Source: Chthoniobacterales bacterium
Lineage (GTDB): Bacteria > Verrucomicrobiota > Verrucomicrobiia > Chthoniobacterales > UBA10450
DNA length: 35,788 nucleotides
Assembly (NCBI GenBank): GCA_013821455.1
Contig: JACDGS010000040.1
Span: forward strand, 1 to 35,788
Direction: 5' to 3'
The notes beneath the pieces are model-generated. The model searched no databases and had not been told where the DNA came from. It was given only the letters and a program-made list of their open reading frames with translations. Both the position numbers and the translations under genes were made by a program. This document shows positions 6,645 to 10,004 of this stretch, piece by piece. The number at the start of each line of letters is the position of its first letter. The first letter of the stretch is position 1.

Positions 6645-6708
6645 CGGGCTCGCTGCACAGTGGCGTGCTCTGCTCGCTTCGCTCTCGACCGCGCGATCGA
6701 GTAAAACT

Positions 6709-6824
6709 TGTCATCCTGAGCGGAGCGAAGGACCTCACAACTGCAAGCCACGCCTCCACGAAAACAGAACACCTCGATTGCAGATGCGGGGTCCCTCCCC
6801 GCGCTTCGCCGGCTCGGGATGACA
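6709..6824. repeat. Intergenic inverted-repeat element, copy 3
   Basis: It begins TGTCATCCTGAGCGGAGCG and ends GGCTCGGGATGAC. It shares GGACCTC(A/C)CAACTGCAA with copy 1 and the GGGGTCC...CGCTCGGGATGACA right end. It fills the space between the convergent GDSL and oxyR genes, where it could act as a bidirectional terminator-like structure. That role is inference. Confidence 0.7.
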
Positions 6825-6834
6825 TCACTTATCG

Positions 6835-7725
6835 TTAGGCAACTCGCGCCCGTCCCGCGATCGCAACGATGTAGGAACGCAACTCAAGCGCCGCGCGCGA
6901 AAGATGCCGCCCCTTTTTCCAAACCAATGCAATCGTCCGCAGCGGCTTCGGTTTGCCTAACGAACGATAACTGACCCGCGCGGAAGACGCACGCGCCATG
7001 GCCGGCACCATCGAGATTCCGACGCCCGCCGCCACCAGCGCCTGCACCGTCTCCATCTGCGCGCTCCGGCAACTGATCTGCGGAGTAAATCCCTTCGCGT
7101 AGCAAAACTGAAGCGTCTGCGCACCGAGACAGTGCGTCTCCGCCATGAAGATAAATTTTTCCGGCTCGAGATCGCTGGCGGCGAGCCGGCGTTTGCGCAG
7201 GAGCGGATGCCCTTTCGGCAAAACGAGCAGCAGCTCTTCGCGGAAAAGCGGCCGCACTTCCACCCGCGCCGAAACGACCGGCAGACTAACGAGGGCTAGA
7301 TCAATCTCGTCGCTTTCCAGCGCACGCAAGGCTCGGTCGGTTGTTTCCTCGTGCACGATGGTCGAGACCGCCGGACAGCGCCGGGGAAATCCGCGGATGA
7401 TCTTCGGGAGCAAATAAGGCGCGATCGTCGGCAGCGCCGAGAGATGCACCTGCCCGCGCGGCTCTCCGCGCGCATCGCGGACTTCGCGATGCGCTTCCTG
7501 CAATTCATGGAGCACTCTGGCGGCGCGTTCCTGGAACATTTCCCCGGCCGAAGTGAGGTGCACGCTCCGCGCTTTGCGCTCGAAGAGACGCTCGCCCAGT
7601 TCGCCTTCCAATTTCAAAATCTGCTGGCTCAGCGAAGGCTGAGCGATGTGACAACTTTCCGCCGCCCGGCTGAAGTTTCCTGTTTTCACGACCGCAAGGA
7701 AATACCGGAGCTGATGTAGTTCCAT
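6835..7725 (-). CDS. oxyR: OxyR, peroxide-sensing LysR-family regulator
   Basis: This 296-residue LysR-type regulator has an N-terminal winged helix-turn-helix (about 1-60; LRYFLAVVKTGNFSRAAE and SLSQQILKLE) and a substrate-binding-like sensor domain (about 90-290). It carries cysteines at 199 and 208 in the context HCLGAQTLQFC. That is the same spacing, and even the same numbering, as the redox pair Cys199/Cys208 of E. coli OxyR, so assignment as OxyR rather than a generic LysR protein is strong. It is divergent from a catalase gene with an OxyR-type operator between them that overlaps its own start codon, which predicts autorepression. The stop codon is in a CGTTAGGC octamer. Start MELHQLRYF matches the usual LysR N-terminus. 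Confidence 0.93.
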   Translation of the reverse strand: MELHQLRYFLAVVKTGNFSRAAESCHIAQPSLSQQILKLEGELGERLFERKARSVHLTSAGEMFQERAARVLHELQEAHREVRDARGEPRGQVHLSALPTIAPYLLPKIIRGFPRRCPAVSTIVHEETTDRALRALESDEIDLALVSLPVVSARVEVRPLFREELLLVLPKGHPLLRKRRLAASDLEPEKFIFMAETHCLGAQTLQFCYAKGFTPQISCRSAQMETVQALVAAGVGISMVPAMARASSARVSYRSLGKPKPLRTIALVWKKGRHLSRAALELRSYIVAIAGRARVA

Positions 7726-7760
7726 AGGCAGTGCCTATCGGCGAGATAGGGAATTCATCT
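7724..7760. promoter_or_regulatory. OxyR operator in the oxyR-katE intergenic region
   Basis: The published OxyR consensus is four tetrads, ATAG-N7-CTAT-N7-ATAG-N7-CTAT. Here ATAG (7724-7727), CTAT (7735-7738) and ATAG (7746-7749) are exact with 7-base spacers. The fourth position (7757-7760) reads ATCT, half matching. The left half, 7724-7738, is a perfect 15-bp palindrome, ATAGGCAGTGCCTAT. The site covers the oxyR start codon (7723-7725) and lies 76-112 bases upstream of the katE start. This fits repression of oxyR and peroxide activation of katE. Confidence 0.85.
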
Positions 7761-7835
7761 TTTCTTCCTATCGCATCAAACCGTAGTTTGGAAAACGCGC
7801 AACAACCTCGCGCCTCATTCAACCAGGAAAAATTC

Positions 7836-10004
7836 ATGCCGAATAAAAACCGCAAGAACAACGGAACCACCGCCAAGATCGAAGCGCTCGCCGCCAGCAC
7901 CTCCATCGCCGACGACAGTCGCCTAACGACCAACCAGGGCCTCGTCATCAATGACGACAACAACTCGCTCAAGGCCGGCGAGCGTGGGCCGACTTTACTG
8001 GAGGATTTTCATCTCCGGGAAAAAATCACCCACTTCGACCACGAACGCATTCCCGAGCGCGTCGTCCACGCGCGCGGTGTCGCCGCGCACGGCTTCTTTC
8101 AATGTTACAAGGGCAACGACGACCTGACCAAAGCCGGCTTCCTCACCGATCCGTCGCGCCAGACGCCGGTCTTCCTCCGCTTCTCGACCGTTGCCGGCTC
8201 GCGCGGCTCGGCCGATCTGGCGCGCGACGTCCGCGGCTTCGCGATCAAGTTTTACACCGATGAAGGCGTCTTCGACATGGTCGGCAACAACATCCCGGTC
8301 TTCTTCATCCAGGACGCGGTCAAGTTTCCCGATTTCATCCACGCGGTGAAACCGGAGCCTAACAATGAAATCCCGCAGGCCGCTTCCGCGCACGACACCT
8401 TTTACGATTTCATCTCGCTCGCGCCCGAGACGCTCCACATGCTCATGTGGGTGATGTCGGACCGCGCGATTCCGCGCAGCCTGCGCATGATCGAGGGCTT
8501 CGGCATTCACACCTTCCGCTTCATCAACGAGGCCGGAAAATCGCGCTTCGTGAAGTTCCATTTCAAGCCGGCGCTCGGGATGCACTCGGTTACGTGGGAC
8601 GAAGCGCTCAAGATCAACGGCGCCGATCCCGATTTTCACCGGCGCGATTTGTTTGACACGATCGACCAGGGCGGCGTGGCGGAATGGGAGTTCGGCGTCC
8701 AGGTGGTCGAGGAAAAAGACGAGCATAAATTCGACTTCGATCTGCTCGATCCGACCAAGCTCATCCCCGAGGAAATGGTGCCGGTGCGCATGCTCGGAAA
8801 GCTCACGCTCAATCGCAACACCGATAATTATTTCGCGGAAACGGAGCAGGTCGCGTTTCATCCGGGGCACCTCGTGCCGGGGATCGATTTCTCGAACGAC
8901 CCGCTCCTAGCCGGGCGGCTGTTTTCCTACACCGATACGCAGCTCACGCGGCTCGGCGGTCCGAACTTCGCGCAGATCCCGATCAATCGGCCGACCTGCC
9001 CGATGCACAATAATCAACGCGACGGCCACATGCAGCAGGTCATCAATCCGGGCGCGTCGGCCTATCAGCCGAACACGGTTGGTGGCGGCTGCCCGATGCA
9101 GGCGAAGGAAAACATGGGCGGCTTCGTCAGCTACGCGGAGAAAATGAGCGGCGCAAAAGTGCGCGGAAAATCGGAGAAATTCTTCGACCACTTTAGCCAG
9201 GCGTCGCTCTTTTTCCGGAGCCAGAGCGAGCCGGAACAGAATCACATGATCGGCGCGCTCACCTTCGAGCTCGGGATGGTAAAACGCGCGGCGATCGTCG
9301 ATCGCATGCTCTTTCTTCTCTCGAAAATCGACACCGGAATGGCGAATAAAATCGCTGAAGGCTTGGGCATGAAAGTTCCGAAATCGATCGAGGGCCGGCT
9401 CAACATGGATGTCGGCGCCGATGCCGGCAAAGAAACGGAAACGAAGCCCGCGAAGAAATCCGATTTCGTGTCGCCCGCCCTGAGCATGGCGAACACGGTC
9501 AAAGACACGATCAAGACACGAAAGATCGCGGTCCTCGCCGCCGACGGCGTGGATGAAGCCTCGCTCAACGCGATGAAAAAAGCCCTAACGAGCGAAGGCG
9601 CGTTGATCGCGGTCATCGCTCCGCGCGGTGGCACAATCAAAGGCTCGAACGGCGGCGAGATCATGGTCGATCACGCGCTGCTCAACGCCGCCTCGGTTTT
9701 GTTCGACGCGGTTTACGTGCCGGGTGGCGCGAAGAGCGTCGAGGCTCTGCTGGCCAACGCCAAGACGATCCATTTCGTCAATGAAATGTACAAGCATTGC
9801 AAGGCGATCGCCGCGACCGGCGAAGGCGTGAATTTGATTCGCGCTTCCTCCATCCCGACGGACCAAAACGGCAGCGCCGATCCGGCTTTGCTCGTGGAGG
9901 AGAAGAGCGACGCGAAAAAAATCTCCGCGAAGTTCATCCAAGCGATCGCGCAGCATCGCAATTGGGAGCGCGAGAAATTCGCGGCCGCGAACACACCCGC
10001 CTAA
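7836..10004 (+). CDS. katE: Large-subunit catalase (HPII type) with C-terminal DJ-1/PfpI-like domain
   Basis: The enzyme disproportionates hydrogen peroxide in the cytoplasm. The 722-residue length and layout are those of clade 2 (HPII-like) catalases. Seen directly are the distal histidine (His78 in VVHARGVAAHG), the VGNNIPVFF segment with the distal asparagine (151-152), and the proximal heme-ligating tyrosine Tyr365 with Arg361 in RLFSYTDTQ. From about residue 565 there is a flavodoxin-like DJ-1/PfpI-type domain (KIAVLAADGVDE). I chose ATG 7836 because AGGA sits eight bases upstream. The open frame runs back to 7731 but overlaps the operator. Its TAA stop lies in the first of two tandem GCCTAACG motifs. 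Regulation by the divergent OxyR is strongly suggested by the shared operator. Confidence 0.95.
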   Translation: MPNKNRKNNGTTAKIEALAASTSIADDSRLTTNQGLVINDDNNSLKAGERGPTLLEDFHLREKITHFDHERIPERVVHARGVAAHGFFQCYKGNDDLTKAGFLTDPSRQTPVFLRFSTVAGSRGSADLARDVRGFAIKFYTDEGVFDMVGNNIPVFFIQDAVKFPDFIHAVKPEPNNEIPQAASAHDTFYDFISLAPETLHMLMWVMSDRAIPRSLRMIEGFGIHTFRFINEAGKSRFVKFHFKPALGMHSVTWDEALKINGADPDFHRRDLFDTIDQGGVAEWEFGVQVVEEKDEHKFDFDLLDPTKLIPEEMVPVRMLGKLTLNRNTDNYFAETEQVAFHPGHLVPGIDFSNDPLLAGRLFSYTDTQLTRLGGPNFAQIPINRPTCPMHNNQRDGHMQQVINPGASAYQPNTVGGGCPMQAKENMGGFVSYAEKMSGAKVRGKSEKFFDHFSQASLFFRSQSEPEQNHMIGALTFELGMVKRAAIVDRMLFLLSKIDTGMANKIAEGLGMKVPKSIEGRLNMDVGADAGKETETKPAKKSDFVSPALSMANTVKDTIKTRKIAVLAADGVDEASLNAMKKALTSEGALIAVIAPRGGTIKGSNGGEIMVDHALLNAASVLFDAVYVPGGAKSVEALLANAKTIHFVNEMYKHCKAIAATGEGVNLIRASSIPTDQNGSADPALLVEEKSDAKKISAKFIQAIAQHRNWEREKFAAANTPA

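Follow-up and report, generated by a model that had tools for sequence, protein, structure and literature searches.

A predicted OxyR operator at the oxyR start codon, shared with divergent peroxide-removing enzymes in Verrucomicrobiota and other phyla

A LysR-family regulator gene and a large catalase gene diverge from a common intergenic gap in a member of the Chthoniobacterales (Verrucomicrobiota), and the question raised by this arrangement is whether the gap carries a peroxide switch that serves both genes. The window analyzed here is the whole 35,788-nucleotide stretch of contig JACDGS010000040.1. We consider it likely that an OxyR-type peroxide switch lies at positions 7724 to 7760 and is shared with katE. 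The features on which the argument draws are as follows.

6835..7725, minus strand: oxyR, encoding a 296-aa LysR-family regulator with Cys199 and Cys208 (alignment, Pfam)
7724..7738, no strand assigned: IR1, the start-codon half of the operator, with tetrads ATAG (7724-7727) and CTAT (7735-7738)
7730, minus strand: approximate oxyR transcript start, inferred by analogy with relatives (the window's hexamers are weak)
7735..7737, minus strand: in-frame TAG within the operator, 12 nt upstream of the oxyR ATG
7746..7760, no strand assigned: IR2, the distal half, with tetrads ATAG (7746-7749, exact) and ATCT (7757-7760, 2 of 4 bases)
7768..7771, no strand assigned: fifth tetrad, CTAT, exact and in the 11-bp phase of the other tetrads
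7784..7789, plus strand: putative katE -10 element TAGTTT, from the aligned column pattern of 79 loci, with an inferred start at about 7796
7825..7829, plus strand: possible katE Shine-Dalgarno sequence AGGAA (sequence)
7836..10004, plus strand: katE-type large catalase of 722 aa with a C-terminal DJ-1-like domain (Pfam, NCBIfam)

The OxyR tetrad consensus at target genes is ATAG-N7-CTAT-N7-ATAG-N7-CTAT. Passages of PMC3953959 and PMC5002191 back this consensus. Positions 7724 to 7760 read ATAG-N7-CTAT-N7-ATAG-N7-ATCT, which matches 14 of the 16 tetrad bases, and the sequence bears out the original prediction of three exact tetrads of four at 7-base spacing. The perfect 15-bp palindrome that had been placed over the oxyR start codon is likewise present: IR1, ATAGGCAGTGCCTAT, is a perfect 7+1+7 palindrome at 7724-7738 that overlaps the start codon (minus strand, 7725-7723) by two bases of the ATG. 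The fifth tetrad at 7768-7771, one turn beyond the operator, did not figure in that prediction. Because of the in-frame TAG 12 nt before the ATG, no ATG, GTG, or TTG start is possible farther upstream of oxyR. In the 4.3-Mb genome, 7724-7760 was the only operator site with three or fewer mismatches, the reversed-pattern control giving 6; a random 8-Mb sequence with the dinucleotide make-up of the window gave no site with two or fewer mismatches and one with three or fewer. An operator profile run on the same genome returned 7724-7760 as its sole match up to an E value of 10, apart from a weak self-overlap. On these sequence grounds, the observation is confirmed, and 7724-7760 is a predicted OxyR operator.

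We infer OxyR binding, a redox shift, activation of katE, and autorepression of oxyR, in the following manner. A tetramer of the LysR-family OxyR would occupy 7724-7760, with IR1 as a high-affinity anchor covering the start region of oxyR, so that OxyR would repress its own gene. Formation of the Cys199-Cys208 disulfide would shift the second dimer on IR2, beyond which lies the fifth tetrad, and the shifted dimer would recruit RNA polymerase to the promoter of the divergent katE, with its putative -10 element near 7784-7789, in the way known from E. coli oxyR-oxyS. Passages of PMC3953959 and PMC5002191 describe oxidized OxyR as contacting four adjacent major grooves and reduced OxyR as contacting two pairs of grooves separated by one turn; by analogy, the fifth tetrad, one turn past IR2, may be where the reduced tetramer would reach.

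Conservation of the operator was assessed in relatives. When 58, 213, and 384 genomes (overlapping sets) were searched at the protein level, 41 loci were obtained, and a scan of named genomes using six search peptides yielded 80 loci, the best 80 of 290 matches; one of the six peptides, MELHQLRY, favors a conserved ATGGA and leaves the upstream bases untouched. Conservation of the tetrads, which had been proposed as a check, was found in both sets of counts. Among the 41 protein-selected loci, 35 carried an operator with three or fewer mismatches at exactly -35 from the ATG, one (G285) carried it at -38, and G054, G209, G399, G491, and G393 were misses. Before pooling, L075 (only 18 bp of upstream sequence) and G022, G341, G246, and G385 (60 bp upstream identical to loci from the named genomes) were dropped. 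Among the 116 pooled, nonredundant loci, 79 had four or fewer of 16 mismatches at exactly -35; two of the 16 matches are free, since two letters of the ATG always fit the last tetrad. In this count G073 was kept with its ATG set by hand, G285 was scored as a miss owing to its operator at -38, and G209 was scored as a miss although the profile places an operator in front of a different ATGGA, about 360 bp farther up than the frame used. The next most frequent offset, -13 (15 loci), reflects the same operator in a reading shifted by two tetrads, and each remaining offset between -140 and +19 was found in at most 4 of the 116 loci. By the phylum of the record name, the -35 operator was present in 24 of 29 loci from Verrucomicrobiota, 15 of 26 from Planctomycetota, 7 of 10 from Acidobacteriota, 1 of 1 from Gemmatimonadota, and 1 of 2 unplaced loci, and in none of those from Thermodesulfobacteriota (0/5), Kiritimatiellota (0/2), Pseudomonadota (0/2), Chloroflexota (0/1), or Myxococcota (0/1). 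The 37 loci without it include 12 that bear katG and 3 that bear a catalase.

The spacers vary among the 79 loci that share the register. In these loci, which were picked by the match itself, position -2 is C in 95% and position -1 is T in 97%. In 71 of the 79, a tetrad forms an in-frame TAG at a distance of 12 nt from the ATG on its upstream side, and a stop lies 6 nt before the ATG in 7 others; the operator fixes the oxyR start codon in these loci, except for alternative starts within the final three codons at 12 of them. The fifth element recurs as ATAG at -46 in 19 of the 79 loci, the window included, and at -44 in 16, whereas ATAG at any other offset from -75 to -37 is found in 3 loci at most. 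Two kinds of unusual loci were encountered. In L127 and L128 (Opitutia), which have the -35 operator, Ser replaces Cys199 while Cys208 is kept, and the divergent gene is a 60-aa membrane-like open reading frame. In L098 (CALQJI020000008.1), a metagenome bin titled Klebsiella pneumoniae, a katG gene adjoins an OxyR that is 54% identical to that of the window; the Klebsiella pneumoniae label looks wrong.

The large catalase that was claimed to diverge from oxyR proved to be a 722-aa reading frame beginning at the ATG at 7836. Matches to PF00199, PF06628, PF18011, and PF01965, all over cut-off, give it a catalase core and a DJ-1-like domain, and catalase HPII/KatE likewise joins a catalase core to a C-terminal DJ-1-like domain. 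The match to the NCBIfam HPII equivalog is nearly full length but scores 1021.9 bits against a cut-off of 1102, and for this reason we name the enzyme KatE-type and not HPII itself. It is the sole full-length catalase-family gene in the genome of the window, where a search for katG found none. Two further weak catalase-family matches at G000:C94:25684-26540, one with two in-frame TAG codons, may represent a catalase-like gene that is broken or distant.

The gene opposite oxyR was classified at 115 loci, G073 being left out owing to a frame break. It is katG in 46, a small catalase in 21, a di-haem peroxidase or peroxidase-like gene in 10, a large catalase in 2 (the window and the Spartobacteria isolate palsa_1413), and a ferritin in 1, with none recognized in 35. 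Labels were set by hand for L094, L126, G195, and G125; the peroxidase-like (CCP) rows except L094 were called on at least two CxxCH motifs plus a C-terminal motif of our own choice, and the three of them that were compared with Pfam (L078, L079, and L104) gave no match. The tree used to count enzyme changes, which was built quickly and has several long branches, requires at least 19 changes among four enzyme types in 79 rows and at least 15 among the 64 operator-keeping rows. The proposal that oxyR and a peroxide-removing enzyme share the operator is thus upheld in relatives, where the sharing is conserved, whereas the type of enzyme varies. The catalase of a genus mate of the window (L178, genome G003) had no tetrad site with five or fewer mismatches over 4,155 bases, and that genome was without a P0001-like oxyR at an E value of 1e-70 or less. 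The katE gene of E. coli belongs to the sigma-S genes and is not known to be a target of OxyR; an oxyR gene beside a KatE-type enzyme, as in the window, is therefore uncommon.

The promoters were examined by aligning the 79 loci on the operator. On the enzyme strand, beyond +12 from the distal end of the operator and up to +44, only the columns at +22 (G, 57%), +24 (T, 65%), +25 (A, 53%), and +29 (T, 80%) exceed 50%, as for an extended -10 element. Where the window has TAGTTT, the sister locus has TACTTT at an equal distance. Loci without a recognized enzyme have similar columns, and the pattern does not separate the groups. Relative to the inferred enzyme start, IR1 and IR2 lie at about -65 and -43, compared with -66 and -44 relative to the E. 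coli oxyS start (passages of PMC5002191). The E. coli oxyR-oxyS region (Toledano et al. 1994, as related in passages of PMC5002191 and PMC3953959) likewise has four ATAG-type tetrads 11 bp apart, a divergent target, three overlapping inverted repeats, and cysteines 199 and 208. Its best operator match, at -58 to -22, is 23 bp farther upstream than the -35 register and is clear of the ATG and the ribosome-binding site, with a purine-rich stretch adjoining the ATG, whereas that of the window ends in the ATG. The E. coli target is the small RNA oxyS, whereas in the window and its relatives it is a catalase or peroxidase.

OxyR might instead mainly repress katE, with oxidation releasing the block. 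The sign of regulation cannot be read from the operator alone, and the OxyR family includes a catalase repressor: PMC3306370 reports that OxyR of Corynebacterium diphtheriae also controls a catalase gene and does so as a negative regulator. However, the operator precedes the inferred enzyme promoter by the distance found at the activated E. coli oxyS promoter and leaves the inferred enzyme -10 element uncovered, and we regard repression of katE as unlikely.

On the oxyR strand of the 79 loci, the best mean promoter score, which is partly forced by the tetrads, was 7.47 of 12, where the average offset scored 4.27, with a -10 element at -17 to -12 and a TTGAAA-like -35 element at -40 to -35. TTGAAA is matched at five or more of six bases in 43 of the 79 loci, and T and A are the first two -10 bases in 22. 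The transcript start that this promoter would imply in relatives is about 5 nt before the ATG, and the alignment suggests that the oxyR mRNA begins no more than a few nucleotides from the ATG and is nearly leaderless; in archaea, passages of PMC10783764 treat leaders shorter than 8 nt as leaderless. The window's own oxyR hexamers, AGAAAA and GCCGAT, are poor, and a sigma-70 promoter scan of 7690-7850 found no match.

The likeness of the regulator to OxyR was examined by several comparisons. Its LysR-type helix-turn-helix (PF00126) and substrate-binding (PF03466) domains score above Pfam cut-offs, and its best PDB sequence matches are OxyR chains. Among six LysR proteins of E. coli, the one closest to the regulator is OxyR. 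In an alignment that included E. coli OxyR and relatives, the cysteines at 199 and 208 fall on the E. coli redox pair, as had been claimed. In a protein tree of 28 chosen rows of the 115 with 6 paralogues and 6 E. coli proteins, E. coli OxyR was placed in a weak fork. The regulator could respond to another signal, with an ATAG-type site kept by descent and the cysteines and catalase incidental. The NCBIfam scores lean this way, with GltC (203.7) and CynR (200.3) ahead of OxyR in third place (196.2), all below cut-off. Set against these scores are an identity of 38.4% to E. coli OxyR versus 30.7% to CynR, the retention of both cysteines, with their positions unchanged, by nearly all relatives that bear the operator, and the repeated occurrence of peroxide-removing enzymes as partner genes; a regulator of another signal is very improbable.

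If the site at 7724-7760 is an OxyR operator, it might also be found where oxyR and its enzyme are apart. Operator profile R1, for which 46 of the 79 operators were used, was searched against 25 genomes. Eight genomes (G377, G341, G111, G056, G112, G054, G399, and G491) have a two-cysteine oxyR without an adjacent recognized enzyme. In six of these, G341 and G056 being the exceptions, a katG gene elsewhere in the genome is preceded by an operator with 1 to 3 mismatches, and the distance from the distal end of that operator to the katG start is 82 to 200 bp. The second site in G341 precedes another LysR gene, that in G056 has no recognized partner in a 2,176-base locus, and G111 has one additional site with no recognized partner. 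An RNA hairpin controlling translation, in which AUAGG and CCUAU pair by eye around the start codon given a transcript start upstream, with the likeness to an OxyR site secondary, is scarcely credible, as the operator also stands at detached katG genes with no oxyR start codon after it and the inferred transcript start would exclude the 5' arm.

Most of the 24 other genomes have one or two operator sites. Degenerate targets may escape, since 150 candidates were scored in most genomes and the profile was trained on operators from the oxyR side. IR1 is kept, with at most one mismatch in the six bases outside the ATG, at 90 of 116 loci. IR2 has four or fewer of eight mismatches at all 65 IR1-keeping loci with an adjacent enzyme and at 14 of the 25 without one, the remaining 11 having more than four; with the cut at three mismatches, the association with an adjacent enzyme has a Fisher p value of 1.3e-4, kinship among loci being ignored. 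These mismatch counts indicate that IR1 stays with oxyR and that IR2 is freer to decay after the partner leaves. Against a strict rule, 13 of the 25 loci without a recognized enzyme keep IR2 at three or fewer mismatches; some of these may have an enzyme that was not recognized here.

A second OxyR-like LysR circuit was observed in the family of the window, in 30 of 213 genomes of the order (loci G000:C30 [L183], L007-L014, and L181-L206). Among 29 loci, its LysR protein has Cys at the 199 position in 21, neither cysteine in 8, and Cys208 in none. Passages of PMC2225504 describe the OxyR of Deinococcus radiodurans as a one-cysteine protein, and cysteine-short OxyR-like proteins also occur in this family; in contrast to the D. 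radiodurans protein, the OxyR of the window has both cysteines, and its paralogues have C199 only or neither. An OxyR-type operator lies 3' of the LysR gene at 26 of the 29 loci and faces a conserved membrane-like open reading frame of 57 to 71 aa, for which Pfam gave no family over cut-off. The ATG of this frame is often 35 nt past the operator, and the frame is possibly leaderless, with its ATG at the inferred transcript start. A small RNA driven from this operator-like site was considered and rejected in favor of a small membrane protein, given the conserved reading frame. The idea that CCTATGGA accompanies LysR start codons in general in these genomes was also rejected, as the paralogue start codons are without the operator (none at 13 loci inspected by eye). 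The window's genome is the only one of the 30 second-circuit genomes that also has a two-cysteine OxyR, and its paralogue operator (L183/L024, G000:C30) reads ATAAGC...GCTTAT instead of ATAGGC...GCCTAT, with both arms changed; perhaps, in this one case, the change keeps the two regulators apart. Elsewhere in the window, between oxyR and the upstream gene (6680-6830), a stretch with GTCATCCTGAGC and CTCGGGATGAC arms, seen by eye, looks like a dispersed intergenic repeat.

The constituent parts of the switch are textbook OxyR. What appears to be new is the fusion of operator and start codon, the one fixed register across phyla, and the exchangeable enzymes; among titles and opening abstract lines in the open-license PMC literature, we found no description of OxyR in these phyla or of the start-codon layout. 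A joint reading of the loci from Verrucomicrobiota, Planctomycetota, and Acidobacteriota, to which we give even odds, is that oxyR is nearly leaderless and self-repressing, with an operator that spells its start codon and upstream stop codon, and that evolution has pulled apart the separable jobs of the two halves: the start-codon half remains at oxyR, and the complete activating site follows the peroxide enzyme currently in use. OxyR would in that case act as a local switch on one or a few targets and not as a global regulator. The likely OxyR switch at katE would extend a textbook redox switch to little-studied phyla in a new layout, and it makes the sharp prediction that the 5' end of oxyR mRNA lies within a few nucleotides of the ATG. 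The swapped enzymes, detached katG genes, and decayed distal halves would offer natural experiments that part autorepression from activation in a LysR-type operator.
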